From a virus: 31,125 nt of DNA. Made by a program: the position numbers and the translations under genes. The DNA lies in IMG/VR virus record IMGVR_UViG_3300045010_000886, positions 1 through 31,125 of that record. One strand, given 5' to 3'. Of the stretch, positions 10,015 to 30,886 are shown in pieces; positions within the stretch are counted from its first letter, which is position 1, and each line of letters begins with the position of its first letter. The notes under the pieces are model-generated. The model saw only the letters and a list, made by a program, of their open reading frames with translations. It did not search any database and was not told where the DNA came from.

Positions 10015-10268
10015 TGTCTGAACAACCGATCATCGTCAACCCCGACAGCATCGAGGAGTTGGTCGACCGCGTTTTTTATGGTTTCCACTACGACTTCATC
10101 AATGACGTCTTGACAGTCGAGGCAATTGAGGAAGACGAAGAAATCAGGCTTCCCGAAACGGGTTTCACCGATCTGGATGATTTCATCGCATGGCTTTCCT
10201 CAAAAAAGTATCTTGGTTTCTCGTGGAGAACGGCTACATCGTCTAATCTTGTGATGGAGGTTTCCTAA
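10014..10268 (+). CDS. Small acidic protein, unknown
   Basis: An 84-aa, strongly acidic protein (EAIEEDEEIRLPE; DLDDFIAWLSSKKY). It is coupled to both neighbours through TAATG overlaps. Small acidic proteins next to long fibre genes are sometimes assembly factors, so a chaperone role for the 1067-aa fibre is conceivable. I recognise no family. Confidence 0.6.
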   Translation: MSEQPIIVNPDSIEELVDRVFYGFHYDFINDVLTVEAIEEDEEIRLPETGFTDLDDFIAWLSSKKYLGFSWRTATSSNLVMEVS

Positions 10269-13200
10269 TGCCGCAGCTTATTGATCTTGGGAGGCTTCGT
10301 CTTTCGTTCCAGGGCGATTATGCCGACGCGACGAACTACCAAACCAACGATGTCGTTCGTTATGGCGGCAACCTTTACGTCTATATCAATGCCGTCACGA
10401 CCCAAAACATCATCCCGGTCACGGCGAGCCATTGGTCCCTCATGCTCGAGGGCACGAACTTCCGTGGGCCATGGGCTACCAGCACGTCATACCTCATCGG
10501 CGACGTGGTCAATTACGGCGGATTGCTGTACCTCGCTCTTGCCAATTCTTCAAACATCCAGCCAGATGATGACGCGACAAAGTGGCAAAAATATCTTGAT
10601 GGTCTGAAGTTTGAGGGCGAGTGGAACAGCGCGACTGCCTATCAGCAGGCCGACGTCGTTCGTCTCGGTGGTCGCGTTTACATTTCAAAAATTGACAACA
10701 CCGGCACGAAGCCGGGCAGTGCTGGATCTTCGGAAGAATGGGAAGTGCTGTCCGACGGATCTCGTCATTTCGACTCGTGGCACGACACCGAAACGTATTA
10801 CATCAACGACGTAGTGACGATTGGTGGTGTCGAGTATCAGGCAACTGAGAACACCGATGCCGGTGATGATCCGGTTGATGGCGGCCCGTGGTCAATTCTC
10901 CGCAATGGATTTTCTTTCGTCGGCAACTGGACGTCGGCACAACCGTACGAAAAGAATCAGGTCGTTCAGTACGGCGGCGCAACATACCGCGTCGTGGTGC
11001 GTCACACGTCGGTCAACGATTTTGACACCGATCTTTCTGCCAACAAGCTCGCCGTGTTCGGCGGCGGTTTTACCTGGAGAAGTACGTGGGCTGCGAATGG
11101 GACGGCCTACAAGGTCAACGACCTTGTCAAAGACGGACTGACCACATACATCGCCACGGCGAGCCATACATCTGGGGCAACATTTGCCGGCGACTCGGCG
11201 TACTGGGACGTGTTTGCTCTTGGTGCGGACTATCTCCCAGCACAAAACACGAACCAGAACAAAGTCCTCACTACTGACGGAACCGATCCATTGTGGACGA
11301 ACGTCGTCAACCTGAACGGAGTCGGCCACAAGTTTGGTCAAAACGTCGACGATTTGGTTGACGGTGACGGAGTTGAAAACGCCGAGCTGACCAATTGGGC
11401 GATGGCGATTCAGTATGACGACGGCGAATACGACAAAGAATCCTACGCTCAGGTTGCATTCAGGCACAAAGACCCGACGTCCTCGTCCGACATAATCGTC
11501 TATTCGGCTAATGGAAATGACGATGCCGGCTGGCTGTCCCTCGGTGTCACAGGAAAAGATTTCGGTGACCCGGCATTCACCCTGACGGGCGGGAACACTG
11601 CCTACATCTTTTACGAGGCAGAAGCCGATGCCGCAGAAAACGATGGGTCGGGAAACCTTGTGTTCGCCACTGGCGACAAGGGAAGCGAAAACAAGATTGT
11701 TTTTGCGGCTGGCGGTTTTGCCACCGGCACGGAGCAGATGTCGATTACCCCCGACACAAACGTTCACGTTGAAATTGAAACACCAGCAACGAGCCCAACT
11801 ACGGGCGCATTCACCGTCGTTGGTGGCGTTGGCATCACGGGTGACATCTGGGTACAGGGTGACTTGAACGTTAACGGAGACATCAATCTTACCGGCCTTG
11901 AATTCATCGCAGTTGGTAACGGTGCCTCCGCTTTCGCAACGACGCTCACAAACCCGATTGCGGCATTCCAGACCCAAGCCGACGATTATGCCCAAATTGC
12001 TTTCCGCAACGTCGGAAATGCACCAGATTCTTCCACTGACTTCATTGCGTACGCAAACAACGGTTCCGACAATGCCGGTTACATCGACATGGGAATCACT
12101 TCGGCCACGTTTGCCGACCCGCAGTTCACGATTACCGGCGCCAATGACGGCTACATCTTCATGGAAGCTCCGGCTGGAACGACCGGAAGCGGCAACTTGG
12201 TTTTCGCCACCGGCGCAAATGGCGAACAGAACAAGATTATTTTTGCTGCTGGTGGTTTGCAGTCAGACAACGAGCAGATGTCCATCACTCCCGACCAAAA
12301 CGTTCACATTGAAATTGATACGCAGTCAGTCAGCCCGGCAACCGGCGCATTGACCGTCGTCGGCGGTGTCGGCATCCAAGGCAATCTGAACGTTGCCGGC
12401 AACACGGAAATCACTGGCAACGTAAGCATTCAGGGTGTAATCAGCGTCGCTGGTGCTGGAACTACGTTGGCCACACAAAACCTCGCGGTAAGCGACCCGT
12501 TGATCTTCGTTGCTTCACCGAACTCCGGCAATGCTCTGGACTTCGGGTTCATCGGTCAGGCTGCCTACGCGCTCGGTTCGGCCCTCGTCGGAAATGTCGC
12601 CACGATTGCGGTTGAAAATGACATCGTCACGGTGACAACCTCTGCTGCGCACGGATTCATTGTCGGAGACTTTGTAACTATTGCTGGCGCAACACAGAGC
12701 CGTTTCAACGGCCAGCATCTAATCACGGTCACGCCGAGTGGCACGTCATTCCGATTCGCCCTTGATACAGATGACCTAGCCGCTGCGGCATCGACTGGGA
12801 CTGCGACCGTTTCAGCTCGCGCCAAGTATTCAGGTTTCGTAAAAGATGCAACAGATGGCAACTGGAAACTGTTTGAGAACCTTGAACAGAAACCGAGCAC
12901 AACGGTTGACTTCACCGATGCCGAACTCGCAGTCTTGGCCATCAAGGACCTTGATGCCAACGGCATTGCGGCATCATCGTACGTAAGAGTCAACGGTTTT
13001 GATGTCATCACCGAAGAAATAATTGACGTCAAGGGTGACCTGATAGTCGGGTCGGGGTCAAACGAGACAGTCCGCATGGCGGCCGGCGCTAATGGAACGT
13101 TCCTGCAGGCGGATTCAACGACTGCAACAGGACTCAAGTACGCCAACATTTCTGCCGATGGTGTCCTTGGCGCAATCCTTACGAATACCGCTGCCAATAC

Positions 13201-13471
13201 GGCCGCCCAAATCACCGCCCTGACCGGAAAGACCAATGGCACGGCCGCATATAGCACGTCAAGCAAATACTTGTCATTCAAGACCGCAAGCGGCGTGCAT
13301 GAGGTCGGTCCGGTATTCCTTGGTTTCACGGTCAATTACACAACAGGCGAACTCACGGCCGTTACGGGCACTGACGAAACCTATGATTGTGATACATTTG
13401 TTGAGGAAACTTTGCTCCCGTCCAATATGACGGTGTCGGTAACCTCGGCAGGAATCCTGCAATTGGCATAG
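10268..13471 (+). CDS. Large modular tail fibre/adhesin (1067 aa)
   Basis: Residues ~1-325 hold six repeats of about 50-60 residues with the pattern F/W-x-G-x-W...Y-x2-x-DVV-x-YGG-x-x-Y, resembling the CBM5/12-type carbohydrate-binding fold. A linker (NQNKVLTTDGTDPLW) follows. Then a module of ~165 residues occurs twice (DNA about 11440-11890 and 11960-12430); both copies share GSGNLVFATG, KI(V/I)FAAGG and EQMSITPD-x-NVH, and end in GVGI-x-G strands typical of trimeric shafts. Next is a VTVTTSAAHGF domain and a C-terminal Ala/Thr-rich region. The binding repeats suggest recognition of a cell-surface glycan. The start overlaps the previous stop (TAATG). Confidence 0.85.
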   Translation: MPQLIDLGRLRLSFQGDYADATNYQTNDVVRYGGNLYVYINAVTTQNIIPVTASHWSLMLEGTNFRGPWATSTSYLIGDVVNYGGLLYLALANSSNIQPDDDATKWQKYLDGLKFEGEWNSATAYQQADVVRLGGRVYISKIDNTGTKPGSAGSSEEWEVLSDGSRHFDSWHDTETYYINDVVTIGGVEYQATENTDAGDDPVDGGPWSILRNGFSFVGNWTSAQPYEKNQVVQYGGATYRVVVRHTSVNDFDTDLSANKLAVFGGGFTWRSTWAANGTAYKVNDLVKDGLTTYIATASHTSGATFAGDSAYWDVFALGADYLPAQNTNQNKVLTTDGTDPLWTNVVNLNGVGHKFGQNVDDLVDGDGVENAELTNWAMAIQYDDGEYDKESYAQVAFRHKDPTSSSDIIVYSANGNDDAGWLSLGVTGKDFGDPAFTLTGGNTAYIFYEAEADAAENDGSGNLVFATGDKGSENKIVFAAGGFATGTEQMSITPDTNVHVEIETPATSPTTGAFTVVGGVGITGDIWVQGDLNVNGDINLTGLEFIAVGNGASAFATTLTNPIAAFQTQADDYAQIAFRNVGNAPDSSTDFIAYANNGSDNAGYIDMGITSATFADPQFTITGANDGYIFMEAPAGTTGSGNLVFATGANGEQNKIIFAAGGLQSDNEQMSITPDQNVHIEIDTQSVSPATGALTVVGGVGIQGNLNVAGNTEITGNVSIQGVISVAGAGTTLATQNLAVSDPLIFVASPNSGNALDFGFIGQAAYALGSALVGNVATIAVENDIVTVTTSAAHGFIVGDFVTIAGATQSRFNGQHLITVTPSGTSFRFALDTDDLAAAASTGTATVSARAKYSGFVKDATDGNWKLFENLEQKPSTTVDFTDAELAVLAIKDLDANGIAASSYVRVNGFDVITEEIIDVKGDLIVGSGSNETVRMAAGANGTFLQADSTTATGLKYANISADGVLGAILTNTAANTAAQITALTGKTNGTAAYSTSSKYLSFKTASGVHEVGPVFLGFTVNYTTGELTAVTGTDETYDCDTFVEETLLPSNMTVSVTSAGILQLA

Positions 13472-13485
13472 GAGAGAGATAAAAC

Positions 13486-15492
13486 ATGGCAACAGTAAAC
13501 CTCGGCAAGGTCAGATTCAACTGGGTCGGTAATTTCGCGTCAATCGCGTCATTCAAAGCCCTGGATGTCGGCTTCAGTGGCAGCACGGTGTATGTCTGCA
13601 AGGCAGACAAAACGTATGCGAGCGCAGGCCAATTCGATGCCGATGCCGCCTCGTTCGATGTACTCGGTTCATCTGCTTTGGCTGCCGCACCGGTCAACTC
13701 CGTCGTCGTGCGCACATCAAATGGTATTTCTGGCGTTCAGTACGGCGAATCGGGCTTGGTGCTGACAAGCACTGGAAAGAACACTGCTCCGGTTTGGAAA
13801 CCGAGATCCGGCAGACCAAACTCAACTCCTTATGTTGGAACTTCTGCAGTAACCGACGGCACGACGGTGTGGTATCCGGGTGAGCAGTTTGGCCGCTACT
13901 TCTCCCACGTTGCGTTTGACATTAAGCCGGACAACGGTGCCTGCCACGGAGCAAGGCCATTCTTCTTCATCACTCCGGACCGCAAGAATGTGAAAGTCTC
14001 CGGATACAACGCTGGCGGCGTGTTGGGGGTCAACCACTATGACGACCAGATAAGCACCTCCACCTATCCCGGAACTCGCTATTCGGTAACGTTCCAGTAC
14101 TGCCAATTTGACACAGCGCTTGATGCGGATGAATTTTTTGCCTATGTGACCGCAAACTATTATGATTCCTGTGTTGTCACCACAAAGGGCAACCTGTATT
14201 GGGCTGGATTTAATACAAGCAGCCAGTGGGGCGAGGGAAACAGCACCAGAAGCACAGTGTTCCGCAGAATGACGTTCTTTGGCCCTGCCACTGGCAGAAG
14301 AGCAACGAGCGTCTACTTTACGACCGCTCATTCGATGGTTACCACCAACCCCTCCATGACCGTTTTTGTCAGAACGCTCGACGGACGGCTCTTTGGTTGC
14401 GGTGCCAACACAGCCGGAATTCTCGGCCAGAACGACACGACAGCAAGAAGTACATTCGTTCAAATCGGAAACACCCAATGGGGCACCACCGCAAAAGTCG
14501 TCGGCTTCTCGTGGAGAAACATTTACACTGGCAACGACAACACATGGATTGCCTGGTTGGACAACGGCCAAATTTGGGGATGCGGATATCCGCTTTCCAA
14601 CACGTTCGGCCGCAACAACACCACCCAGCTCAACGTTCCCACGCGCTTGACCGAACTTGAAACCGTCATTGAAACAGCAGTGCCAGGTGACAGGGTGCGA
14701 CAAATCTTCAAACCATGGGGACACAACACGGCACAAGTAAACTGTGTGACCTATGTGCTAACGAACGCAGGAAGGCTCTATTCGTGCGGAAGAGGACAAT
14801 CGGGTGACCTCGGTCTTGGCGGCTCTACCGGCGCCCAAAACCAGCCAGTGTTCCTCGAAGTAATATGCCCAGACAACAGGACATGGGCATCCGTTCATTT
14901 TTCGAACGGAGCATGTTGGGTTTCGGCGTTCGGAATCACCACGGACGGCTATCTCTACGCATGGGGTGACAACAGGAACCAGCAACTCGGTTTCTTTAAT
15001 GACGGCTCTAATCGATCGACGCCGATAGAGGTGACTGGTCTACCGTCGGGATTCCAAGGCAACATGCGCTACGTGTGGTCTTTTGCGAATTTCTATCAAG
15101 ATACAGACAATAACGGTAACGGCCAAGCACAAACGTTCTTCAAGGCGTTCGATCCGACGACTGGTCAAGACCGCTACGCATCTGCCGGATATTGGGGTGG
15201 TGGAGTCCTGTGTCAGGCAGGAATTGATAGACGAGTTGATCAGCAATGGGGAGGTAACCTGCCCGCAAGGGAAATTACGAGCTACTTGCCCAACTTCGGA
15301 CAGGGGCTGGTTGACATCCTCTATCGCCACAACACCTCGAGCACCAACTCTTTCATGACGGTGCAATGGGTGTACAGGGATGGAAGATCGTTCATATCTG
15401 GCTACCAAAACAACCAATCAGACTACGGACTCTCGACTGGCTTTTCGCTTCCCCAATACCAGCATTACCCGATGGAAATGCGATACATGTAA
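13486..15492 (+). CDS. RCC1-repeat tail fibre/adhesin (668 aa)
   Basis: GGAGAGA precedes the ATG. The first ~60 residues (GKVRFNWVGNFASIASFKALDV) are a degenerate copy of the module repeated in the 1067-aa protein, probably a shared docking or sugar-binding unit. From about residue 225 there are RCC1-type blades: GNLYWAGFNTSSQWGEG, GRLFGCGANTAGILGQ, GQIWGCG, GRLYSCGRGQSGDLGLG and GYLYAWGDNRNQQLG, each followed by a (V/T)P-x-(R/E) strand. RCC1 propellers are protein- or ligand-binding discs. The C-terminus (EITSYLPNFGQGLVDI) is shared with the next gene, its paralogue. Cysteines are frequent for a fibre (CGCG patches). Confidence 0.85.
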   Translation: MATVNLGKVRFNWVGNFASIASFKALDVGFSGSTVYVCKADKTYASAGQFDADAASFDVLGSSALAAAPVNSVVVRTSNGISGVQYGESGLVLTSTGKNTAPVWKPRSGRPNSTPYVGTSAVTDGTTVWYPGEQFGRYFSHVAFDIKPDNGACHGARPFFFITPDRKNVKVSGYNAGGVLGVNHYDDQISTSTYPGTRYSVTFQYCQFDTALDADEFFAYVTANYYDSCVVTTKGNLYWAGFNTSSQWGEGNSTRSTVFRRMTFFGPATGRRATSVYFTTAHSMVTTNPSMTVFVRTLDGRLFGCGANTAGILGQNDTTARSTFVQIGNTQWGTTAKVVGFSWRNIYTGNDNTWIAWLDNGQIWGCGYPLSNTFGRNNTTQLNVPTRLTELETVIETAVPGDRVRQIFKPWGHNTAQVNCVTYVLTNAGRLYSCGRGQSGDLGLGGSTGAQNQPVFLEVICPDNRTWASVHFSNGACWVSAFGITTDGYLYAWGDNRNQQLGFFNDGSNRSTPIEVTGLPSGFQGNMRYVWSFANFYQDTDNNGNGQAQTFFKAFDPTTGQDRYASAGYWGGGVLCQAGIDRRVDQQWGGNLPAREITSYLPNFGQGLVDILYRHNTSSTNSFMTVQWVYRDGRSFISGYQNNQSDYGLSTGFSLPQYQHYPMEMRYM

Positions 15493-15530: not shown

Positions 15531-18413
15531 ATGCCGGTCCTCAATATAGAAGCGATAAAGCCTCAATACAAAGGTGAGTGGAGCCAGACCACGACGTACG
15601 TGGCCGGCGACGTGGTCACCTATCGCAAGTCGCTCTATTCTGCCGCATCCAAAACAACGGGTTTCGCCCCACAGAGCGACTCTTCCTTGACACCCACAGG
15701 ATCGCCGTGGGTGCTGATGATGGTTGACGCCGACACTACGATTTTGAGCAACACGTCGGCGCTCGGCCAGACGTCCCAAGGCGTTCTGTATGAGAACAAT
15801 TCGGGAAACCTGCAGCTTTCGGCTGGTCTTACACCAAAAGAACTGTCCGGCTCAAAGGTCGTCGTCAATTATCTGACGACTGGCGCAGGTGTCGCCTCTT
15901 CGTATTCTGGTGCCGCCACCACTGGAAAGATCAGGCAGCACAGACAAATCACCACCGGCAACGTTCGTGTTCAAACCGCAGAAAGAACGGCCGGAAACCA
16001 AAATTCAATTTCCGATGGGTATTACAAACAGAGCGACATCAACAAGGCATGGGAAGTTGGCGGAACAACGACATTTGACGCAACCGACATGGAGGGCGTC
16101 ACCCTGGATCTTGTCACGACGGAGACCTCAAGGCAACGTGCGGGTGTCCTCGGTGCCCTGGATGCAACATCGCCGCTTCGTGGATCGGGCACGCCGACTC
16201 AGGCGCTTGCATTCAGCAACACGGTTGAGTACTCAGTTGCAAACAGCGGATCGAGTGCCTTCGCGATTTCGGGTACGGGTCTCAGTGGTACCGTCTTAAA
16301 TCCGACGCTTCAGGTTCGCGTCAATGACAGAATCATCTTCACGCGGACTACTTCTGGGCATCCGCTCTACATTTCCACGGTTCCTGGTACATCGTGGACC
16401 AATACACCGACAAACACGCCGGCGGCTCCGAACATTGTTGCCGGTAATGGAACGACCGTCGTTGAATTTTCCCCGGCGTATGCCGGAACCTACTACTACC
16501 TATGCAGCAGCCATCCCTCCAGCATGTGGGGAACGATTACGGTTGAACCACGCGCTGAAGTTCGATTTGAGCCAGCATCGGCCAGCCGTTTCCAGACATC
16601 GCCGATGTCAAAGATTACGGATTTCTATTGGCCGGATGGTGTCCAGTGGACAAAGCCAAGATGGCTTGACCACGATTACTGCTTCCAAGAAGTCTGGCCC
16701 TATTCGCAGGGGCCGACGGCCGGATTCAACGGCTCGACTGGAATATTTGCATCCATAACACCGGACAGAAAGCAAATCAAGGTCGGCGGATACAATGCCA
16801 ACTGGCACATTCCGATCAACCATTATTCGGACCAAATAACTACCGGATCCTACTCTATGGATGAGGCGAATAGAAGAGTCCGCAACCTTCAGTATGCGCA
16901 GTTCCAAGACGCATTGCGCGAAGACGAATACTTCATGTATCTTCGCACGTCCTACTACTCGGTTTATGCAATAACGAATCACGGTCGCCTTTTCCAGAAT
17001 GGAACATCCTGGAACTATCACTGGTGGACGGACAACTACATGACGTACATGAAGGCGCACCCGTTCTTTGATTACGAAAACGGAAGAAGCGCATGGGACT
17101 TGCAAATTTGGAGTTTTCGAAACAATTTCAACAATTCCAACCAGATGGTCCAGATGGTTCTCACCAAAGAAGGTCAATTGTGGTCGTGGGGATACAACGG
17201 AATCGGTACACTCGGCGATGGCACAACCAACGACCGTCAGTGGCCAAAGCTCGTCGGCGGTGATGGTCCAGTAACACCATCAAACGACACTTTGCAAAGA
17301 GTTTTGAGCGGAACCGCTGGAACATCATCCGAATTGAGGGCAAAGGTGGTGTGGTTTGCGCTCGGCCCGTCGTTCAGCGACGGCACGGCCTATGCCGGAA
17401 ATGATCTAGGCGAATGGTACGGCTGGGGTTGGAACAACCGCTACACGCTCGGGGTCGGCGACAACAACCAGAGAAACACCCCGGTACGGTTGACAAGCCT
17501 TGAAACGAACATTTCTTCGGTTGCCGCCGCTTCGAAAATTCCGATTGACTGGTCAATGCAACACAACGGCTCAAATGACACAACCTATAGGAACCTGACT
17601 TTTGCGCTCCTTCCAGACAACCACATCTACGCCGCTGGTTACACATCGGATTTTCAGGACGGAAACAACAATTCGAGCCAGTTTGCGACATTGTCCACAT
17701 GGACGCGAGCCAACCGGCCAACCGGCAAGACGTGGGTGAAGATGAAGGCCGCCGGACACCAGCGATCGACCGTTTACGCAATGACAAATGACAGGTTTAT
17801 TTATGCTTGGGGCGCGAACCAGTACGGTGCCATCGGCGATTTGTCGCAGAATTCAAGAGCAGTTCCGACAGTCGTTTCTGGACTACCAACCGGCGTGCAG
17901 GGAAATATTTATGATTTCTACCCCTGGGGTGGCGGTCAGGGCGGCAACACAGGCGAAACCGGGTTTGCTGGGTGCTTGATTCGCCGCCGCGACTGGAACA
18001 ACACGTCACAGATATACACCGGAACCACAGACAGATGGTTCATACAGGGTTTCGTCGGAAACAGCACCAGTTATTTCAATCGCCTAAACCTCGTCCCCGT
18101 CTCTGGAAATGCTCGATCTGGTGAAAACTTTGCCGACAGCCTGGCAACTCCATTTGAGATCACTTCGCTTCTGCCCAACCAGGGTCAGGGGATTGTCGAC
18201 GTGAATATCCGGTCATACTCAAGCTGGCCGACCACCATCTACATCACGTACGACAACGGAAACGTTTTCCAATGGGGATACGAATACACCGGCCGCGGTG
18301 AATATCCTTCGGAGGGCGGCTGGGAGAGCAACGGCCAACTTGGTATGGACACGAGCACGCCGTCTTGGCGTGGGTACCCGAGGCTTGTAAATCAGGTAAA
18401 CAACTTCATCTGA
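15531..18413 (+). CDS. RCC1-repeat tail fibre with cupredoxin-like domain (960 aa)
   Basis: AGGAGAA precedes the ATG. Residues ~10-65 are the same N-terminal module as in the two preceding fibres (YKGEWSQTTTYVAGDVVTYRKSLY). Residues ~232-343 form a plastocyanin-like domain: a VRVNDRIIF strand, then GHPLYI with H277, then AGTYYYLCSSHPSSMWGTI with C325, H328 and M332, ending in a VEP strand. This matches the H...C-x2-H-xn-M type 1 copper ligand set. From about residue 400 the sequence parallels the 668-aa paralogue (ITPDRK-x2-KV-x-GYNA; NHY-x-DQI) and continues with RCC1 blades such as GQLWSWGYNGIGTLGDG and FIYAWGANQYGAIGD. Copper binding itself is not proven. Confidence 0.85.
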   Translation: MPVLNIEAIKPQYKGEWSQTTTYVAGDVVTYRKSLYSAASKTTGFAPQSDSSLTPTGSPWVLMMVDADTTILSNTSALGQTSQGVLYENNSGNLQLSAGLTPKELSGSKVVVNYLTTGAGVASSYSGAATTGKIRQHRQITTGNVRVQTAERTAGNQNSISDGYYKQSDINKAWEVGGTTTFDATDMEGVTLDLVTTETSRQRAGVLGALDATSPLRGSGTPTQALAFSNTVEYSVANSGSSAFAISGTGLSGTVLNPTLQVRVNDRIIFTRTTSGHPLYISTVPGTSWTNTPTNTPAAPNIVAGNGTTVVEFSPAYAGTYYYLCSSHPSSMWGTITVEPRAEVRFEPASASRFQTSPMSKITDFYWPDGVQWTKPRWLDHDYCFQEVWPYSQGPTAGFNGSTGIFASITPDRKQIKVGGYNANWHIPINHYSDQITTGSYSMDEANRRVRNLQYAQFQDALREDEYFMYLRTSYYSVYAITNHGRLFQNGTSWNYHWWTDNYMTYMKAHPFFDYENGRSAWDLQIWSFRNNFNNSNQMVQMVLTKEGQLWSWGYNGIGTLGDGTTNDRQWPKLVGGDGPVTPSNDTLQRVLSGTAGTSSELRAKVVWFALGPSFSDGTAYAGNDLGEWYGWGWNNRYTLGVGDNNQRNTPVRLTSLETNISSVAAASKIPIDWSMQHNGSNDTTYRNLTFALLPDNHIYAAGYTSDFQDGNNNSSQFATLSTWTRANRPTGKTWVKMKAAGHQRSTVYAMTNDRFIYAWGANQYGAIGDLSQNSRAVPTVVSGLPTGVQGNIYDFYPWGGGQGGNTGETGFAGCLIRRRDWNNTSQIYTGTTDRWFIQGFVGNSTSYFNRLNLVPVSGNARSGENFADSLATPFEITSLLPNQGQGIVDVNIRSYSSWPTTIYITYDNGNVFQWGYEYTGRGEYPSEGGWESNGQLGMDTSTPSWRGYPRLVNQVNNFI

Positions 18414-18425
18414 TAGGTTGTAATC

Positions 18426-18830
18426 ATGGCTTACGCAGATGCGGAATCACTCTCGGAACTCCTTGAAGAAGGACTCTCCAACCTGAGGAATGTTGAACAT
18501 GAGATAGCGTCCGGAAACGGGTCTGCTTTTACGGATTTTGTTCAGTCGGGAACAATTCTTGAACCGTTACAAGGCAAGAATTTGGAAGTCGAGCTCTACA
18601 ATCCGAGGACGAACAATTGCGGAATGGTTTATTTCTATTTCAGGGGGGCAATGCGGCCGAATCCCCAGATTGTCGCCTTTCTAAATGAAGAGCATCAGAC
18701 TGTCAATGTGGAAGGTGTGCCGACCTTGTTGGCCATGTTGCTTGAGCTGCTTGGGCCGTGGCAAGAAATCGACACTACAGTGATCAATCCGTTTGTCGTC
18801 AAAGAAGAGGGATCTACACCCGAGGAGTGA
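18426..18830 (+). CDS. Unknown protein after the fibres, possible fibre assembly factor
   Basis: A 134-aa acidic protein. It begins with a helix (AESLSELLEEGLSNLRNVEHEIA), has a beta-rich middle (NLEVELYNPRTNNCGMVYFYF) and ends in a helix (VPTLLAMLLELLGPWQ) and an acidic tail. The start is 12 nt after the last RCC1 fibre, and its 3' end overlaps the convergent glycosyltransferase gene by 17 nt. The position right after long fibre genes is typical of fibre chaperones, but the sequence offers no family match. Confidence 0.65.
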   Translation: MAYADAESLSELLEEGLSNLRNVEHEIASGNGSAFTDFVQSGTILEPLQGKNLEVELYNPRTNNCGMVYFYFRGAMRPNPQIVAFLNEEHQTVNVEGVPTLLAMLLELLGPWQEIDTTVINPFVVKEEGSTPEE

Positions 18831-19845
18831 GTCCGACGGTCTCGGAGAAATCGTACCCGTACGATTCTTTCTGATGAGTTTCTAGTTTTTTGTAGAACTC
18901 CTGAATGTCAAAATTTGCCGCTTGATAATAGCGCTTCAACAGATTCATGCTCGGCGCACCCCATTCACCGAGATATTGGCCGGTGAGGATTCTTTGAGTT
19001 CGTAATTTTCCGCTTAGGCGCCTTCTTCTGTTGTTGTATTCGTCAATGTGTCTCCAGTCCAACTCGTCTAGCCTGCCGTTCATCATTGCTATTTGCCCTG
19101 CAATATCATCGTCACCGTCTGGAATGTCGGGAAATTTGGCTCTGTGCCAAACGATCATCTCTGGTATCGCATACATTCGGTAGCCGCGAGTCCACGATCG
19201 GACAGCAAGACATGGCTCGTCGCCCTCAAACATGATTGCTGGATCCGGCATTATCTCCCAGAAAAATTCCGACCTCGAGAAAATGAAATGGTTTGATAGG
19301 CAGTGGTGTTCCTGCCATTCGCCACGAACCGGTTCCCCATATCCATACATTGGCATCCAAGCGATGAAAGTTTCCGGCCTGTCGTACATCGCCATTGTTG
19401 GAGCAGACCCATTGTCGGGCGAATCAATGACATTGATTTCACCGTCATACAGGCCGTACCTGGGCAGATACTGGGTTATCAGCGGTCTTGTCTTGGGGTC
19501 GGACTCTTCAAGTTTTCTGTGCTTGTCAAGAAGAATCCTGTCCCAGCCATTGTCAAAGAGGTGGTGGGCGTCCAAGCGCAACATATACGGCTCGTGGTCG
19601 TGAAGTGCTCCCGCCATGACCCTGGCGAGATCGGCTCCGCGAGGAGAATCGCAGAACACATTGGTGACTCTGACGTTTTTCAGGTTCCTGAAATCTTCGA
19701 ATTGGCCGGTTGTTGATTGCTGGCAAATCCCAAAAGACAGGTTGTCGGGTTTTTCTGCCGTGGCGATAGCTCCCTCAACGGTCAGCCGCAGGTGGTCTTC
19801 ATTGAATGAGGGAATTAGGATGAATATTTGTTCGTTGCCGGACAT
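18814..19845 (-). CDS. Glycosyltransferase, GlcNAc-transferase-like (GT60/PF11397 type)
   Basis: A 343-aa protein with an AGGGTT site upstream. A GT-A start (IFILIPSFNEDHLRLTVEGAI) is followed by RGADLARVMAGAL and YMLRLDAHHLFDNGWD, in which D92-x-H94 sits where GT-A enzymes keep their metal-binding DxD/DxH. Further on, FEGDE (residues 206-210), RSWTRGY (216-222) and IVWHRAKFP (H234) follow. This order is that of the family including Dictyostelium Skp1 GnT1, which adds GlcNAc to hydroxyproline. No membrane segment, so it is probably cytoplasmic and acts during virion assembly. A general GT2-like enzyme acting on a host or phage glycan is the alternative. Confidence 0.85.
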   Translation of the reverse strand: MSGNEQIFILIPSFNEDHLRLTVEGAIATAEKPDNLSFGICQQSTTGQFEDFRNLKNVRVTNVFCDSPRGADLARVMAGALHDHEPYMLRLDAHHLFDNGWDRILLDKHRKLEESDPKTRPLITQYLPRYGLYDGEINVIDSPDNGSAPTMAMYDRPETFIAWMPMYGYGEPVRGEWQEHHCLSNHFIFSRSEFFWEIMPDPAIMFEGDEPCLAVRSWTRGYRMYAIPEMIVWHRAKFPDIPDGDDDIAGQIAMMNGRLDELDWRHIDEYNNRRRRLSGKLRTQRILTGQYLGEWGAPSMNLLKRYYQAANFDIQEFYKKLETHQKESYGYDFSETVGLTPRV

Positions 19846-19943
19846 GCGTGAACCCTATCACTATTGGGTGGTATTGTTTGCTGGTGGGAAACAAGTCCAA
19901 TTACAACAACAAGCGCAAGAAGCGCAACAAGCGAAGGAAGATC

Positions 19944-20210
19944 ATGCCAGAAGATATGCCGCTCATCACCGAGGAAATGGCCGCCGACGGCCAGCAGACC
20001 GGAGTCCCCAATTTCACGCAAAGCGAAATGGAAGTGTTTATGGTGCTCGCCGAATACTCCCAAGAGATTGAACGCCTTAGAATGATGGTGCTTGCCCTTG
20101 GCGGCGACCCAGATGCTCGTTACACATCAGAGGATTTGGGTGGTAGGGTTGGCGACCAGCAACCCGATCCGGAACTTGCGAAAATGAATGAGGAAATGAC
20201 CTATGAGTGA
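19944..20210 (+). CDS. Small acidic protein, unknown
   Basis: I prefer ATG 19944 because GAAGGAAGA lies 2-10 nt upstream; the product is then 88 aa. Upstream in-frame starts exist (GTG 19884, ATG 19848) and would add an N-terminal stretch with a very basic run (NNKRKKRNKRRK); that longer form cannot be excluded. The 88-aa form has helices (SEMEVFMVLAEYSQEIERLRMMVLAL), probably coiled coil, and an acidic end. Its stop overlaps the start of the next gene (20203). No family recognised. Confidence 0.6.
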   Translation: MPEDMPLITEEMAADGQQTGVPNFTQSEMEVFMVLAEYSQEIERLRMMVLALGGDPDARYTSEDLGGRVGDQQPDPELAKMNEEMTYE

Positions 20211-20358
20211 CATCCCATCAAATGTTTCTGCCGACGCGGTCATCAGTGACCTGGCCGAGCAAATCACGCGCCTGACAAAAGAGAACGCGATTTTGCGGGC
20301 AATGATTCGCAAAATGCAGGAGAATGCACAAGCCCCCCAGGGGGTGACGGGTACCTGA
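20203..20358 (+). CDS. Short coiled-coil peptide (51 aa)
   Basis: An ATG at 20203, overlapping the previous gene by 8 nt, opens a 51-codon frame: MSDIPSNVSADAVISD, then LAEQITRLTKENAILRAMIR, a heptad-like leucine/isoleucine pattern, and a Gln/Pro tail ending at the TGA at 20356. Coupled translation with the upstream gene, which also contains a probable coiled coil, suggests the two may pair. Unknown role. Confidence 0.55.
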   Translation: MSDIPSNVSADAVISDLAEQITRLTKENAILRAMIRKMQENAQAPQGVTGT

Positions 20359-20375
20359 TTGGCAAGGAGGGTCAT

Positions 20376-20582
20376 ATGAAAAAAATATTAGCGTTGTTGC
20401 TTATTGCCTCATCATCGTTAAGTTGTTCAACTGGTGCTGAATTTGATGACCAACCTTACGACGATGTAGAAGTAGATCCAATTTACAAATGTTTTGAAAA
20501 CTATGCGGAGCTGAATAATTACCAACTTTCTGATGATCCATCAGACATGATTGAATATTGTTATGAAATTTACGGAGACTAA
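20376..20582 (+). CDS. Small secreted protein or lipoprotein
   Basis: A 68-aa protein with a very strong ribosome site (AAGGAGGG, 4 nt before the ATG). A signal peptide is clear: MKK, then ILALLLIASSSLSCS. C17 could be a lipid-attachment cysteine, but the residues before it (S-L-S-C) are not the canonical lipobox (L-[AST]-[GA]-C). The mature part is acidic, with C39 and C62 positioned to form one disulfide. Its A+T content looks higher than that of its neighbours. Exported phage lipoproteins often block a second infection, but here that is only a possibility. Confidence 0.65.
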   Translation: MKKILALLLIASSSLSCSTGAEFDDQPYDDVEVDPIYKCFENYAELNNYQLSDDPSDMIEYCYEIYGD

Positions 20583-20599
20583 TTAGATGAAAAAAACTG

Positions 20600-21949
20600 T
20601 CAGCTCTGCTTCATGTTGTAAAAGTAAAACCGATTCATTGAGTATCTGACTCCGGCCTTCACTTTTTCGACTCTGTGTTCAAAAAGGTAATTTGACGGAA
20701 ATATTAGTATCTGGCCGGCAGTGGGTTTTATTCTGTGGTCAAAATTTACGAATACAAACTCTCCCCCATCGTAGTCATCGTTGAAATAGCAAGTTGCCGT
20801 GATTACTCTGTGCAGGTGCGGTTGGGCATCGGTATGTGACGTCATTGATTGGCCGACCCGGGTTCTCAGTAATGTTATGACTTTTTCTGAGTGGACTGGT
20901 TTCGTATTGAATGCCGATGAGTAGTGGCTCACAACCGCATCTATTCCCGAGAATAGAGATTTTGAAAGTCTTGTAATTGGGTCAACATGGTGACACTGTT
21001 CGTGTTTGCCATAAAGCCAGAAATTATCCGGTCTTGTTTCTACGGGAACCAGGTTCTCGTCGCCATATTTGGCCATTTCCCAACCCATAAAACACGCGTT
21101 ATGTATCAACCCATACAGTTGTTGGGCGGATTCTTTTTTTATTGAATATGAGTGAACGCCGGGAAGTATTTCTTCTGGCCCTTCGAACGACATGTCGACT
21201 GTTTCCACTGTCAAATTGTTTTGCTGGCTTGCAACTTCGGCTATTTCTTCGTAGTAACCAAGAACTCTCGCATACGCAGTCAAACCTTTTGTGTTTTCGC
21301 ATTTTGCCGAAGGCGGATCTGGCAACGGAAAATATCTTCTCTCGTTGAAATACCTAACATCTCCGTCGCGGCAGTATTTCGCCATGCCGCCTTTCGGGTC
21401 CGAAATGATCCAATGATCAGGAGTAACAAACTGCATAAACAGCTGGATCACGTAATCCGATTCATTCACAGATGGATAGAAGGGTCTTGCATGTCTGTGG
21501 AACTGGCCTGCGTACAAAACTGCCGAATTTTCTTCGAGGCTAAATATTTCATCATTGATCGTCAAAGCCCAATCGATAGTTTTTTCGATGGTCACGTTTA
21601 TTGAAACTTGCGATGCGTTTTGATCAAGGTGATCCCAAAGGTTTGGGATACAGCCCTCGTGTATTTGGTATTTGCCGAGATAGTTGTAACCCTTCACCAA
21701 GTGATTATTGCCGGTAATTTCTCTTATTTTTTGTGTTGCCTCATTTTGGACTTTTTCTGGCACCGCCGGCCCTGAGCCATATCTCCCGATCAGGTGATCG
21801 TAATTTGTGGTAAGTAAAGATTCTTTGCATGCTGATTTGAGTTCAGCGAAACTCTCTTCAGAAAAAAAATTGCCCACAGAACGCGGTTTGTCTATTATCT
21901 CTTGTAGCGGGAAAAGAATGCGGCCGAATGTTTTTGTTTCAGATTGCAT
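20600..21949 (-). CDS. 2OG-Fe(II) dioxygenase, prolyl 4-hydroxylase-like, with a second N-terminal oxygenase-like domain
   Basis: A 449-aa protein. The C-terminal domain has the full facial triad and 2OG-binding signature: SHTDAQPH with H372 and D374, CYFNDDYDGGEFVF, GQILIFPS, and H425 followed by R435 (HRVEKVKAGVRYSM), the P4H pattern. A second, more diverged domain lies N-terminally: H107-x-D109 (LWDHLDQN) and H151/H153 (FHRHARP), which would also fit an Fe(II) site. These enzymes hydroxylate protein side chains (Pro, Lys), nucleic acids or small molecules using O2 and 2-oxoglutarate. The operon also encodes a proline-repeat protein, which makes prolyl hydroxylation the leading hypothesis. 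It starts 4 nt after the Zn-ribbon gene. Confidence 0.85.
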   Translation of the reverse strand: MQSETKTFGRILFPLQEIIDKPRSVGNFFSEESFAELKSACKESLLTTNYDHLIGRYGSGPAVPEKVQNEATQKIREITGNNHLVKGYNYLGKYQIHEGCIPNLWDHLDQNASQVSINVTIEKTIDWALTINDEIFSLEENSAVLYAGQFHRHARPFYPSVNESDYVIQLFMQFVTPDHWIISDPKGGMAKYCRDGDVRYFNERRYFPLPDPPSAKCENTKGLTAYARVLGYYEEIAEVASQQNNLTVETVDMSFEGPEEILPGVHSYSIKKESAQQLYGLIHNACFMGWEMAKYGDENLVPVETRPDNFWLYGKHEQCHHVDPITRLSKSLFSGIDAVVSHYSSAFNTKPVHSEKVITLLRTRVGQSMTSHTDAQPHLHRVITATCYFNDDYDGGEFVFVNFDHRIKPTAGQILIFPSNYLFEHRVEKVKAGVRYSMNRFYFYNMKQS

Positions 21950-21953
21950 TCGT

Positions 21954-22181
21954 TCACCATTTGCCGAGCGGGCAGACTGCTTCCTTTAAACGGGCTTTTA
22001 TCTTCATAAAGCATCCGCATTCTTTGCATTGAAACGTTGTCTTTATCAAGCGGTCGCATCCGGCACATTCTGCGATTCGATCGGCATACTTGTTGTCATC
22101 GACTTTTGGGATATTTGGATTGAGAACGTCCCACGGTCTGGTAGTGCCGAGCTTCTTCTTGTATTCCTGCCATGCGCTCAT
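21954..22181 (-). CDS. Small Zn-ribbon protein
   Basis: A 75-aa protein with a zinc-ribbon pattern C-x2-C (AECAGCDRL), C-x2-C-x-C (FQCKECGCFM) and a final CPLGKW. The CGCFM-x-IKARL...CP-x-GKW ending recurs in small phage proteins, usually encoded next to oxygenases or structural genes. It could act as a small metal-binding partner of the dioxygenase encoded 4 nt downstream, but that is inference from position. Its start abuts the stop of the upstream gene (22182). Confidence 0.7.
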   Translation of the reverse strand: MSAWQEYKKKLGTTRPWDVLNPNIPKVDDNKYADRIAECAGCDRLIKTTFQCKECGCFMKIKARLKEAVCPLGKW

Positions 22182-22454
22182 TCATTGACCCGCTTTGGTG
22201 AATGTTCCGTCTTCTTGGAGAATATCTCCGCCCTGAACGACGTTCTTTTGGTCGGCCGCCAATTTTACCACTTTGGGGTCGGATGACCACGCTGCGAGAA
22301 GAAGTTCCGCATTGTTCATTACCGGAATGACAACGGTAACCTCGTTTTCGACGACAAAAGCGAAGAATTCGAATTGTTCTGGATTTGATACAGGATTCGG
22401 CGGCTGTGTCTGGAGGCCGTCAGTGCTTTTGTTTGGTTGAAAATTTTCTGACAT
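22182..22454 (-). CDS. Unknown 90-aa protein
   Basis: The start is ATG 22454, with GAGGAAAA immediately upstream. A further in-frame ATG at 22544 lies inside the preceding gene and has no such site. The product has a polar N-terminus (SENFQPNKSTDGLQTQ), a beta-strand pair (FEFFAFVVENEVTVVIPV) and an Asn/Lys/Asp-rich end. The FAFVVENEVTVVIPV-MNNAELLLAAWSSDPKVV pattern suggests a small alpha/beta protein. It is part of the minus-strand run 24941-20600 and may relate to assembly of the fibre encoded upstream. Confidence 0.65.
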   Translation of the reverse strand: MSENFQPNKSTDGLQTQPPNPVSNPEQFEFFAFVVENEVTVVIPVMNNAELLLAAWSSDPKVVKLAADQKNVVQGGDILQEDGTFTKAGQ

Positions 22455-22485
22455 TTTTCCTCGATTCGTCGTTTTCGATACTAGA

Positions 22486-24093
22486 TCAGAACCGGCAGTA
22501 CGGACCGTCACACCACGAGTCGCATATATTTCCACAGGAATCACGGCTTACGTAGTAATAACAATTCGGGTCTCCTCCGCACCCGCCGCCCAAATATTCC
22601 GATCCAGAGCATCCGCTGCAAACAGGTGGCTCTACCGGCGGCTCTACAGGCGGCTCTACCGGCGGCTCTACGGGCGGAGAGACAGGCGGCTCTACGGGCG
22701 GAGAGACAGGCGGCTCTACGGGCGGAGAGACAGGCGGCTCTACCGGTGGAGAAACAGGCGGAGAGACAGGCGGCTCTACCGGTGGAGAAACGGGCGGAGA
22801 GACAGGCGGAGAAACGGGCGGAGAGACAGGCGGCTCTACGGGCGGAGAGACAGGCGGAGAAACAGGGACACAATTTCCGTTACAGCTTTCGAAATTGTTA
22901 AAATTTGAGCATCCGCATTTGCTGTATTCCGTCCATGTTGAACCACACGGATAGCAATAATTATCTACACCTGCAGCCCCCGATCCGTTCGGGCCATAGT
23001 TGTGGGTTGTTACTCGTGTCCACACGCCATCGCCACCACTCGGCGGAGCACCACAATTAAAACTAGACGCGCAGGATCCGGGTGGACACAGATGAGCACA
23101 TCCTGAACCGGTCGACGGATTGTAAATTGTTTGGAGTCCGAAATAACCACAACCGTCCGTACATGCGGCATAACCACCGAAAACACAAGACGTGTTGGCG
23201 CATGGATCAACCACTGGGCAGCCAGTGCAGGATCCTGCTATGAAACAAAAATATGATGGGCACCCAGATTTGTCATACGCAATATAGGAAAGTTGAGCAC
23301 ATTCAGGGCATATTCCCCCCAAAGAGCCTCCTGGCGCAGTACGTACGTTGGCCGAATACCCTGCAGTTGTTGGCGCATCGGAACAACTTGTTGCGCACAC
23401 TATTGGCGGCTCTACGGGCGGAGAGACAGGCGGCTCTACGGGTCCGCCGCCGCCGCCGCCGCCTCCGCCGCCGCCGCCGCCTCCGCCAACTGGGGCAGAG
23501 TAACCACAGCAACCATCTCTTAGTTCCCCAAAGTAGCCACCCTCATATCCACCTGCGCCAAGGCCACAACCTACGCAATAGTACATGTAGGAGTATTGGC
23601 CGTCACATGTAAATCCGATTGGGTCATATTGTGCTCCACCCGGACCATAAGGGCTTCCGGGAGCACAACTTGTGCCTGTCGCCCTGCTGCAATACTGCTG
23701 CGCCGTTGCATTGTTTGCCGGGGAGCCAGGAGGTGGACATGGCGGAGGAGAGACGGGCGGAGAGACGGGCGGAGAGACGGGCGCAAAAGGTACTACTGAA
23801 TTGGTTGTGGCCAAATCGGAAACAACTCCGTATGGAGTAACTACTAGAACTGAAAATACATACGCAATTCCGTTTGACAAACCGGTGAAGTTATACGCAA
23901 GAGTGTTCGTACTTTGAGATAGTGAGCCAACGGTGATGTAATACTGGACTGCGCCGGATTTTCCAGGCCACGAAAGACCACTAGCGTTGATTGTCGCTTG
24001 GGCATTTCCAGCTGAAGCAGAAAGACCGCTTGGAGTGCTCGGTTTTTTGCCTTGGCTAGATGCCGTCCCCGGGGAAATACGGCCGTAGATCAT
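22486..24093 (-). CDS. FN3 / poly-Gly / Cys-rich / (S/E)PPV-repeat surface protein
   Basis: A 535-aa protein coupled to the upstream fibre gene by a TAATG overlap. Order: residues ~19-103 fibronectin type III-like (PSGLSAS...QYYITVGS...YNFTGLSNGIAYVFSV); ~104-125 Pro-rich (VSPPV); a Cys-rich part; 15 consecutive Gly (203-217); PVEPPVSPPVEPP; a second Cys-rich region (~231-410) with many C-x-C and C-x2-C patterns; 20 units of SPPV or EPPV (412-491); a final Cys-rich end (492-535). No signal peptide. It looks like a fibre extension or decoration, stabilised by disulfides and a polyproline stalk. The repeats resemble hydroxyproline-rich glycoprotein motifs. No known family for the whole. Confidence 0.8.
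   Translation of the reverse strand: MIYGRISPGTASSQGKKPSTPSGLSASAGNAQATINASGLSWPGKSGAVQYYITVGSLSQSTNTLAYNFTGLSNGIAYVFSVLVVTPYGVVSDLATTNSVVPFAPVSPPVSPPVSPPPCPPPGSPANNATAQQYCSRATGTSCAPGSPYGPGGAQYDPIGFTCDGQYSYMYYCVGCGLGAGGYEGGYFGELRDGCCGYSAPVGGGGGGGGGGGGGGGPVEPPVSPPVEPPIVCATSCSDAPTTAGYSANVRTAPGGSLGGICPECAQLSYIAYDKSGCPSYFCFIAGSCTGCPVVDPCANTSCVFGGYAACTDGCGYFGLQTIYNPSTGSGCAHLCPPGSCASSFNCGAPPSGGDGVWTRVTTHNYGPNGSGAAGVDNYCYPCGSTWTEYSKCGCSNFNNFESCNGNCVPVSPPVSPPVEPPVSPPVSPPVSPPVSPPVEPPVSPPVSPPVEPPVSPPVEPPVSPPVEPPVSPPVEPPVEPPVEPPVEPPVCSGCSGSEYLGGGCGGDPNCYYYVSRDSCGNICDSWCDGPYCRF
22621..22860 (-). repeat. 12-nt tandem repeat coding for 20 SPPV/EPPV units
   Basis: Twenty uninterrupted 12-nt units encode the tetrapeptides SPPV and EPPV within the gene at 22486-24093. 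The two unit types differ in the first codon (Ser versus Glu) and are mixed; the last four units are all EPPV. Such near-identical units can expand or contract by slippage. Shorter patches of the same units occur near 23405-23440 and 23747-23785 in the same gene. Confidence 0.9.
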
Positions 24094-24941
24094 TACGTAG
24101 CACTCAGGTCACCGAACAAATACCACTCTTCGTTCGCTCTTTTTACGAGGGTTGCAGAAGAATTTTGTGCGCGAAGGTACGAACCCGGTGTCGCCCTGAG
24201 GTTTGTTGTGGCCGGCGTTGCGGCGACGACCTGAGTCTTGCCTGTGCCCATTTGTACGACCGTTATTTGTGTTCCAATGGGAAACCCCACTGAACCGGCA
24301 CCCGTAAACGGCGGAATCGTTACAGTGTTTTGCTCAGAAAGGTTCATCTCGATGATTCTGTTTTTGTCGGTGAGCACCAAAGAATAGTTTGCCGTTTTGG
24401 TGTCAATTGCAACATCGGCCAGTTTTTGTGGCGTTACAGCATTGTCGGCAATTTTCACGGTGGAAATCGCTAGGTCTTGCAGTTTTTCGGTTGTCACGGC
24501 AGAGGTAGCAAGTTTTTGAGTTGAGACAGCGAGGTCGCTAATTTCCGCTTCAGTTATTTGTGCAGAGTTGACCGCCAGAACCCATGCATTATTTGTTCTT
24601 TTCATGATTGTTCCAGTAGACCACTGAGTCAACAATGACAAAAAGTTGCCTTCTGCATTGATGGTGACACCGGATGCCCCAACAAGCGTGACTGTGCTTG
24701 TTCCGCCGTTGAGCATCAAAATTTCCGTTCCATCCACAAAAACCACTTGTGAATCGTTCGGAATGGTGACCGTCACAGGATTGGAGGCGGTGAATATAAC
24801 TAATTTTCCGCGATCGGCCTGGCTAAGAGTGTAAGCGGTGCCGGAAACTGTCGATATTGGTTTTGTATAAACACTGCTTTGTAAAGTGTTCATTTGCGAC
24901 GAAGTCAGAATTGAATTCGCGATAAACGTCTGATAGCTCAT
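24093..24941 (-). CDS. Fibre-like protein with leucine-repeat stalk (282 aa)
   Basis: GGAG lies 6 nt before the ATG. The protein has two similar beta domains, one near the N-terminus (YTLSQADRGKLVIFTASNPV) and one C-terminal (YSLVLTDKNRIIEMNLSEQNT, then GTQITVVQMGTGKTQVVAA and ANEEWYLFGDL). They flank a stalk of about 11-residue repeats, S-x-LA-(V/I)ST-x-KLA (residues ~130-180). Such repeats form trimeric shafts in phage fibres. It is encoded on the minus strand, opposite to the main fibre cluster, and is translationally coupled to the proline-repeat protein, which suggests a joint appendage. Confidence 0.8.
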   Translation of the reverse strand: MSYQTFIANSILTSSQMNTLQSSVYTKPISTVSGTAYTLSQADRGKLVIFTASNPVTVTIPNDSQVVFVDGTEILMLNGGTSTVTLVGASGVTINAEGNFLSLLTQWSTGTIMKRTNNAWVLAVNSAQITEAEISDLAVSTQKLATSAVTTEKLQDLAISTVKIADNAVTPQKLADVAIDTKTANYSLVLTDKNRIIEMNLSEQNTVTIPPFTGAGSVGFPIGTQITVVQMGTGKTQVVAATPATTNLRATPGSYLRAQNSSATLVKRANEEWYLFGDLSAT

Positions 24942-30462: not shown

Positions 30463-30813
30463 ATGACCAAAAAGAAAAAACCAACAAAAAACACCCAACA
30501 AAAAACACCCAACACAACAAACTTCATAGCTATACAACGATACAACTGGATGAAATACGCAGCCTGCAAAAACCAAACCCACCTCATGTTCCCCAAAGCC
30601 CACAAAGACATCACCTACATCCAAGGCGCAAGAACCCTCTGCAACCAATGCCCAGTAAAACAACAATGCCTCCAATACGCACTCGAATTCCCACCAGCAG
30701 ACATGCACGGCGTATGGGCCGGACTCACCTCAAGACAACTCCAAGCAGAACAAAGAAAAAGAGGCATCACCCCAACAAGACCCACACTCTCCGAAATGTG
30801 GGCAAACCACTAG
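30463..30813 (+). CDS. whiB: WhiB-family iron-sulfur regulator
   Basis: A 116-aa protein with the WhiB signature: C35, then C60-x2-C63-x5-C69 (LCNQCPVKQQC) for a [4Fe-4S] cluster, followed by GVWAGLT (residues 83-89, usually GVWGG) and a basic C-terminus (RQLQAEQRKRG). These proteins bind the primary sigma factor and DNA, and occur only in actinobacteria and their phages, so this gene identifies the host group. The N-terminus is a Lys/Thr/Asn-rich extension encoded by almost G-free DNA; the true start could be later (ATG for M30). No Shine-Dalgarno site is visible. Confidence 0.92.
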   Translation: MTKKKKPTKNTQQKTPNTTNFIAIQRYNWMKYAACKNQTHLMFPKAHKDITYIQGARTLCNQCPVKQQCLQYALEFPPADMHGVWAGLTSRQLQAEQRKRGITPTRPTLSEMWANH

Positions 30814-30886
30814 CGTTCCGGCCAGGACTCGAACCTGGAACCTACTGATTAGAAGTCAGTCGCGCTATCCATTGCGCCACCGGAAC
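30814..30886 (-). tRNA. tRNA-Arg (anticodon TCT)
   Basis: The minus strand folds into a full cloverleaf: acceptor GTTCCGG/CCGGAAC, D stem GCGC/GCGC, anticodon stem ACTGA/TCAGT with loop CTTCTAA (anticodon TCT, reading AGA), a 5-nt variable loop, T stem CCAGG/CCTGG with loop TTCGAGT, discriminator G. CCA is not encoded. The 3' end touches the whiB stop codon. AGA is common in the phage genes here, so it likely aids translation. Confidence 0.95.

Follow-up and report, generated by a model that had tools for sequence, protein, structure and literature searches.

The window analysed here is the whole 31,125-base IMG/VR record IMGVR_UViG_3300045010_000886, a linear fragment. Between positions 18814 and 24093 its minus strand encodes a proline-repeat protein, a DUF6171 zinc ribbon, a two-domain 2-oxoglutarate (2OG)-Fe(II) oxygenase and a GT60-family glycosyltransferase (GT). 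This region is probably (about 0.62) a phage cassette that modifies the phage's own proline-repeat structural protein after translation, by hydroxylation and probably glycosylation. The interpretation draws on observed gene order, protein families and catalytic motifs, together with predicted folds, the repeated finding of the cassette in other phages, the place of the GT60 in a phylogenetic tree and one gene fusion, from which we infer the identity of the substrate, the reaction products, the sugar and the location in the virion.

The proline-repeat gene and its putative modifying enzymes

The presumed substrate is a protein of 535 amino acids (aa) encoded at 22486-24093 (minus strand). Its translation contains exactly 20 consecutive (S/E)PPV units, in which PPV is preceded in turn by S,S,E,S,S,S,S,E,S,S,E,S,E,S,E,S,E,E,E,E. 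The block is coded by a DNA tandem array detected by Tandem Repeats Finder (22622-22866, minus strand), so that chance occurrence of 20 units in a row is ruled out. Shorter proline-repeat runs also lie outside the block, and the layout includes an N-terminus that is FN3-like by eye, a glycine run and cysteine-rich segments. No Pfam or PHROG family was matched by the protein. Directly upstream, and overlapping it by base 24093, is the gene for a 282-aa tail-fibre-like protein (24093-24941, minus strand), for which PHROG 8780 (minor tail protein) was matched at 2.3e-31, along with several tail-fibre PHROGs. The (S/E)PPV block would be predicted to give a fibre-like protein a stiff and extended rod of polyproline type.

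From 24093 to 20600 the repeat, zinc-ribbon and oxygenase genes follow one another on one strand. The ORF (open reading frame) listing places the repeat, oxygenase and transferase genes, all on the minus strand, where the preliminary description had put them, as it does the 20-unit block and a short plus-strand island between the two enzyme genes. That description had, however, overlooked two genes between the repeat and the oxygenase. The first encodes a 90-aa protein ('FAFVVENEV...'; 22182-22454, minus strand), recognized by its sequence and by comparable ORFs in other cassettes; like-placed small ORFs in loci L224 ('KFAMVVENDV') and L505 ('YKIAVVVDGEV') resemble it by eye only. The second (21954-22181, minus strand) encodes the 75-aa zinc ribbon, which matches PF19668 (DUF6171) at 3.6e-9 and 37.3 bits, above the curated cut-off of 27, and has the motif C39..C42...C52..CGC...CPLGKW. 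It is 44 to 69% identical to 14 cassette homologues and is the most constant gene of the cassette.

The oxygenase (449 aa; 20600-21949, minus strand) matches PF13640 at its C-terminus (Pfam, 4.8e-15). The C-terminal domain has a site like that of prolyl 4-hydroxylases (P4H), with an HxD...H iron triad (H372-x-D374, H425) and R435 for 2-oxoglutarate. All 30 aligned homologues keep H372, D374 and H425 and have either R or K at position 435, in agreement with the full H-x-D...H...R site claimed earlier. The preliminary description was right about this P4H-type site and missed a second, N-terminal domain, which is a different oxygenase type with its own H107-x-D109...H153. A stand-alone homologue of the N-terminal domain gave a weak, below-cut-off match to Asp/Asn hydroxylase.

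An AlphaFold2 model of the oxygenase was compared with structures in the PDB (predicted local distance difference test, pLDDT, 79; predicted template modelling score, pTM, 0.56; a low-confidence stretch lies between the domains). The top matches of residues 254-449 were a Trichoplax PHD (Z 18.6), human PHD2 (18.4) and a Pseudomonas putida P4H (17.9), to which Foldseek added OGFOD1/Tpa1, the PBCV-1 enzyme vCPH (5c5t) and P4Hs from Bacillus anthracis and Chlamydomonas. Protein prolyl hydroxylases thus account almost throughout for the solved matches listed for the C-terminal domain, although fold by itself is no proof of substrate. The possibility that nucleic-acid demethylases would be the best match was not borne out, and the idea of a DNA or RNA demethylase was rejected: no AlkB-type chain was among the top solved structures listed, an absence that is not proof in itself.

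The GT60 transferase (343 aa; 18814-19845, minus strand) matches PF11397 at 1e-26 with 94.7 bits against a curated Pfam cut-off of 21, upholding its earlier assignment. Its AlphaFold2 model (pLDDT 78, pTM 0.81), also compared with the PDB, has a GT-A fold whose closest solved relatives are polypeptide N-acetylgalactosamine (GalNAc)-transferases (Z 23.5; next kind 17.2). The D-x-H metal motif and a later histidine are conserved in aligned homologues (D92 in 40/41, H94 in 41/41 and H234 in 40/41); by analogy with GalNAc-T2, these residues are presumably Mn ligands. The predicted fold favours protein substrates and disfavours lipid- or DNA-modifying enzymes, and neither of the latter was the best match; again, fold is no proof of substrate. 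In a maximum-likelihood tree the window GT60 falls in a clade of nine, the other eight members of which are all cassette GT60s (support 100/99). Its nearest neighbour is that of L490 (37% identity), and GT60s of large phages form a separate clade.

The plus-strand island between the oxygenase and transferase genes (19848-20582) holds ORFs of 120, 51 and 68 aa and lies outside the cassette. The 68-aa ORF (20376-20582) has the look of a small lipoprotein (MKKILALLLIASSSLSC...).

Recurrence in other phages and the source of the window

Single-protein scans of IMG/VR with the window GT60 and oxygenase gave no confirmed relatives, and alignment queries were used instead. Three IMG/VR samples were chosen, by xPPV DNA pattern, oxygenase similarity and zinc-ribbon similarity, and searched with hidden Markov models (HMMs) that had the window as their seed and were refined iteratively with the loci retrieved; a few contigs are shared between sets. 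The genes form a recurrent phage cassette consisting of a proline-repeat gene, a small ORF, a zinc ribbon, one or more oxygenases and sometimes a GT60.

A DNA pattern coding five xPPV units was the sole criterion for one set of 120 loci, and 23 of these had an oxygenase homologue; among 120 control loci, chosen with a random 14-mer and about equal in total length, there was none. An adjacent zinc ribbon was found in 22 of these 23. Linkage was strong for TPPV (14/24 loci) and VPPV (8/26). In the oxygenase-picked set, 24 of 64 nonredundant loci had a same-strand proline-rich ORF no more than 2 kb upstream, where random placement gave a mean of 3.3 and a maximum of 10 in 1000 trials. The nearest same-strand proline-rich ORF lay within 4 kb downstream in only one of the 64. 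Repeat types beside oxygenases vary (VPPV, TPPV, FPPFFPPY, FSPPGFF, PTPTP, PVAPAPV); the link is therefore to proline density and not to one repeat family.

Among loci picked by zinc ribbon, an oxygenase lay within 300 nucleotides downstream in 45/76, a proline-rich ORF upstream in 39/61 and a GT60 was present in 14/79. The repeat accompanied the enzymes: it was present in 30 of 38 such loci with an enzyme and 5 of 15 without (P = 0.003 with the proline-rich threshold set to 12 in 40, and 0.03 with 14 in 40). Window-type gene order, with a fused two-domain oxygenase of 442 to 456 aa, recurs in six loci (L034, L072, L073, L080, L097 and L108).

Repeat, oxygenase and GT60 genes occur together on at least nine contigs, representing eight distinct viruses, and are contiguous in several. 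The order is repeat, zinc ribbon, oxygenase(s), GT60 in L463, L474 and L479, and repeat, zinc ribbon, GT60, oxygenase in L490 and L505. L436 has the full set with a minus-strand gene interposed, and the full set is also found in L251 and in L024/L036, which are one virus. Pfam confirms PF11397 in the tested representatives of cassette GT60s. In addition, L217:8369-9865 is one open frame of 498 aa that joins an N-terminal GT60 (2.9e-31) to a C-terminal oxygenase (6.6e-19). A zinc ribbon and further oxygenases lie near this fusion.

GT61-type (PF04577) transferases occur in two xPPV cassettes (L039:2705-3583, 3.6e-18; L108:5999-6898, 8.2e-8), as if the protein glycosyltransferase were a replaceable part at the GT60 position. 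Weak GT HMM matches beside oxygenases in L226 and L253 were not counted as GT60, their Pfam matches being partial or below cut-off. A first sample of GT60s consisted mainly of one large-phage clade, with PF13640 in 10 of 80 records and proline-rich ORFs in 25 of 80; these counts were given little weight because those GT60s form a separate clade in the tree.

Other occurrences lie outside the cassette. The only GenBank phages in which GT60 was found are XacN1, CM1 and RAS14. Some large phages (L124, L132, L183 and L189) have two tandem, diverged GT60 genes apart from any proline-repeat cassette. No cassette was seen in bacterial GT60 loci; the sole exception among them is L418, a SAR86 single-cell contig, in which GT60 adjoins an oppositely oriented oxygenase-like ORF. 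SPP/GPP-rich proteins are encoded near a PF13640 oxygenase in L204 (11861-14379) and L205 (8417-10432), with GT60 7 to 10 kb away; genes for an actin-like volactin and for a subtilase, families assigned on L205, lie in the neighbourhood. Cupin/JmjC-like and radical-SAM/SPASM genes, possible further modifiers, adjoin cassette oxygenases at L017:5788-6372, L096:5561-6184 and L043:2091-2945.

The complete cassette was not found in the zinc-ribbon-bearing cultured phages read (S-IOM18, QB2, S-SRM01, PSS2, Mendera and Sf-FS3), and in Stenotrophomonas phages the zinc ribbon stands in an unrelated gene context. In cyanophage S-SRM01 (L511, 2390-5336) a flavin-dependent halogenase gene adjoins adhesin tip and zinc-ribbon genes, possibly reflecting another fibre modification.

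The window itself looks like part of a contractile-tailed phage of actinobacteria, since its baseplate protein is closest to those of Arthrobacter and Gordonia phages, its metallophosphoesterase to those of Microbacterium and Clavibacter phages, and it encodes a WhiB-like regulator. A tRNA-Arg (TCT) gene at 30813-30886, near the end of the record, adjoins the WhiB-like gene. The fibre region also encodes a 1067-aa tail-fibre-like protein with five matches to the carbohydrate-binding family CBM_5_12 (10268-13471) and two large proteins with RCC1-like propeller repeats (13486-15492 and 15531-18413), the second of which has weak CBM5/12-like and cupredoxin-like matches. Scans of the window for promoters and terminators gave site counts not above those of shuffles.

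Likely targets and alternative explanations

In the proposed pathway the repeat protein, the small protein, the zinc ribbon and the two-domain oxygenase would be made from one minus-strand run. Judging from its modelled fold and site, the P4H-like C-terminal domain most likely hydroxylates prolines of the repeats, and the N-terminal domain may oxidize the same protein. The GT60, encoded 0.8 kb further on, would most likely add a sugar to the repeat protein. The acceptor would be either hydroxyproline (Hyp), the case in the Skp1 pathway, or Ser/Thr residues within the repeats. The modifications would yield a fibre or stalk that is hydroxylated and probably also glycosylated. That the oxygenase acts on the repeat protein is the firmest part of this scheme and is considered likely. 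That the GT60 acts on the same protein is held with somewhat less assurance, as a reasonably probable step. Attachment of the sugar specifically to Hyp is a tentative proposal, to which slightly less than even odds are given.

Several observations weigh against the modifying-cassette interpretation. Sequence-family matches of the oxygenase are to the broad PF13640 only, which also takes in non-prolyl oxygenases, and its NCBIfam PKHD/YbiX match is below cut-off. Oxygenase linkage was seen in 0/3 SPPV and 0/2 EPPV loci, so the repeat letters of the window are unusual. The repeat protein was missing from 6 of the 36 zinc-ribbon loci with an oxygenase and from 4 of the 10 with a GT60. As to the co-occurrence in related phages raised in the preliminary description, oxygenases track repeat genes and contigs with all three genes exist, but some phages have the enzymes without the repeat protein, among them large T4-like phages with GT60 only. 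The exact sister of the window GT60 is unsure because its branch is long. Finally, hydroxyproline was not detected in virions of PBCV-1, the one virus whose P4H has been tested, according to a personal communication that PMC7019647 cites.

As for the claim that the phage oxidizes and then glycosylates its repeat protein, the enzyme families, folds and linkage agree with it. It is only partly supported overall because Hyp formation, the choice between Hyp and Ser/Thr as acceptor, GlcNAc (N-acetylglucosamine) as the sugar and location in the virion are all inferred.

The alternative that survives best is a mucin-like one, in which the oxygenase hydroxylates prolines to give a stiffer rod and the GT60, in an independent step, glycosylates neighbouring Ser/Thr with no Hyp-O-sugar formed. 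It is a sub-case of the cassette interpretation, and the two confidences overlap; taken alone it is rather unlikely. The polypeptide GalNAc-transferases that the GT60 fold resembles act on Ser/Thr, and most GT60-bearing cassettes have PTPTP, TPPS, TPPV or ATPPP repeats. GT60 also lies directly after the zinc ribbon, with no oxygenase or repeats detected, in L454 and L482, an arrangement that fits independent steps and also counts against a repeat protein modified by both enzymes. However, Ser/Thr content was not significantly higher in GT60-bearing than in oxygenase-only cassettes (P = 0.13), L436 combines GT60 and oxygenase with Ser/Thr-poor FPPFFPPY repeats, and the GT60-oxygenase fusion in L217 suggests sequential action.

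A less probable alternative still is that only the oxygenase pairs with the repeat protein, the GT60 being nearby by chance and targeting either some other virion protein, of which the RCC1-like fibres are examples, or a glycan on the host surface. The window GT60 gene is not contiguous with the cassette; it lies outside the operon, behind the opposite-strand ORFs of 19848-20582. Moreover, most cassettes have an oxygenase without GT60, and in large phages GT60 is found within clusters of sugar genes, apart from the cassette. These facts also tell against a two-enzyme cassette in general, but the window GT60 clusters with cassette GT60s, apart from the large-phage clade, and contiguous cassettes and one fusion are known.

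It is very improbable that the linkage merely reflects a tail-fibre hot spot gathering unrelated accessory genes. The cassette does lie in tail regions, where GTs, cupin-like and radical-SAM genes also occur, but gene order and direction are conserved across many dissimilar contigs and the repeat tracks the enzymes within zinc-ribbon loci (30/38 against 5/15). Least credible of all is a metabolic oxygenase that tunes host 2-oxoglutarate or nitrogen metabolism, a role suggested for cyanophage 2OG oxygenases (PMC9602691), since strong, polarized linkage to proline-repeat genes and a prolyl-hydroxylase fold would not be expected of it.

Relation to known systems

The transferase Gnt1 belongs to the GT60 family. 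In Dictyostelium, PhyA, a P4H, acts on Skp1 before Gnt1, whose substrate is hydroxylated Skp1 (PMC3515798). The window resembles the Skp1 pathway of Dictyostelium and Toxoplasma in pairing a prolyl-hydroxylase-type oxygenase with a GT60-family transferase, and the parallel drawn in the preliminary description holds for enzyme families and not for a demonstrated pathway. The Skp1 pathway is eukaryotic and cytoplasmic, modifies one proline of a regulatory protein and serves O2 sensing. The proposed phage system, in contrast, has a repeat-rich structural-type protein, a two-domain oxygenase and a zinc-ribbon partner; no Skp1-like protein was found among the window proteins run against Pfam or PHROG.

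Like the window oxygenase, vCPH of PBCV-1 is a viral enzyme of prolyl-hydroxylase type, and its solved structure is among the C-terminal domain matches. It differs in being a single domain from an algal virus, and we know of no GT60 or zinc ribbon linked to it. The PBCV-1 P4H forms 4-hydroxyproline on peptide substrates, according to Eriksson 1999 as cited in PMC9301287 and PMC7019647.

The closest GenBank relatives of the oxygenase, at about 23 to 30% identity, are 2OG-Fe(II) oxygenases of cyanophages S-SCSM2R and ACG-2014f. S-SCSM2R has a homologous two-domain protein ahead of a GT cluster. In ACG-2014f a parallel set, consisting of a collagen-repeat protein, a GT4-type transferase, an oxygenase and a tail fibre, stands nearly in a row. 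No xPPV repeat partner was found in the stretches of these two cyanophages that were read. 2OG oxygenases are widespread in cyanophages, where a role in host metabolism has been assigned to them (PMC9602691), and a Baltic Sea survey described what viruses do with prolyl 4-hydroxylase as 'cryptic' (PMC9301287). 2OG-Fe(II) oxygenase and P4H genes are abundant accessory genes of aquatic phages, and an ordered cassette points to a concrete substrate for them. No description of a proline-repeat/zinc-ribbon/oxygenase/GT60 cassette was found in the open-access literature, which does not prove novelty. If the interpretation is right, protein hydroxyproline, and possibly a Hyp-linked sugar, is made by a bacteriophage, and the cassette would offer proline-hydroxylating and protein-glycosylating enzymes from a compact prokaryotic source.

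Plant extensins are Ser-Pro-Pro-rich rods whose prolines are hydroxylated and glycosylated. They are secreted cell-wall proteins modified by other enzymes, GT95 among them, so the likeness is one of motif type only. A more speculative extension, given rather less than even odds, is that many uncultured tailed phages build extensin-like stalks, the repeats being hydroxylated by dedicated phage prolyl hydroxylases and the Hyp then O-glycosylated by GT60 (elsewhere GT61), with DUF6171 as a required enzyme partner. Such stalks would account for some of the many 2OG-Fe(II) oxygenases of aquatic phages that lack an explanation.

A virus that modifies its own repeat protein has a precedent in mimivirus, whose L230 is a bifunctional lysyl hydroxylase-glycosyltransferase acting on viral collagen (PMC9614988). 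L230 differs in targeting lysine in collagen Gly-X-Y repeats, in its relationship to PLOD/GLT25D1, in its unrelated transferase family and in its origin from a giant virus of amoebae. As in the proposed phage system, however, a virus hydroxylates and glycosylates its own repeat protein, and both activities reside on one polypeptide, an arrangement comparable to the fusion in L217.

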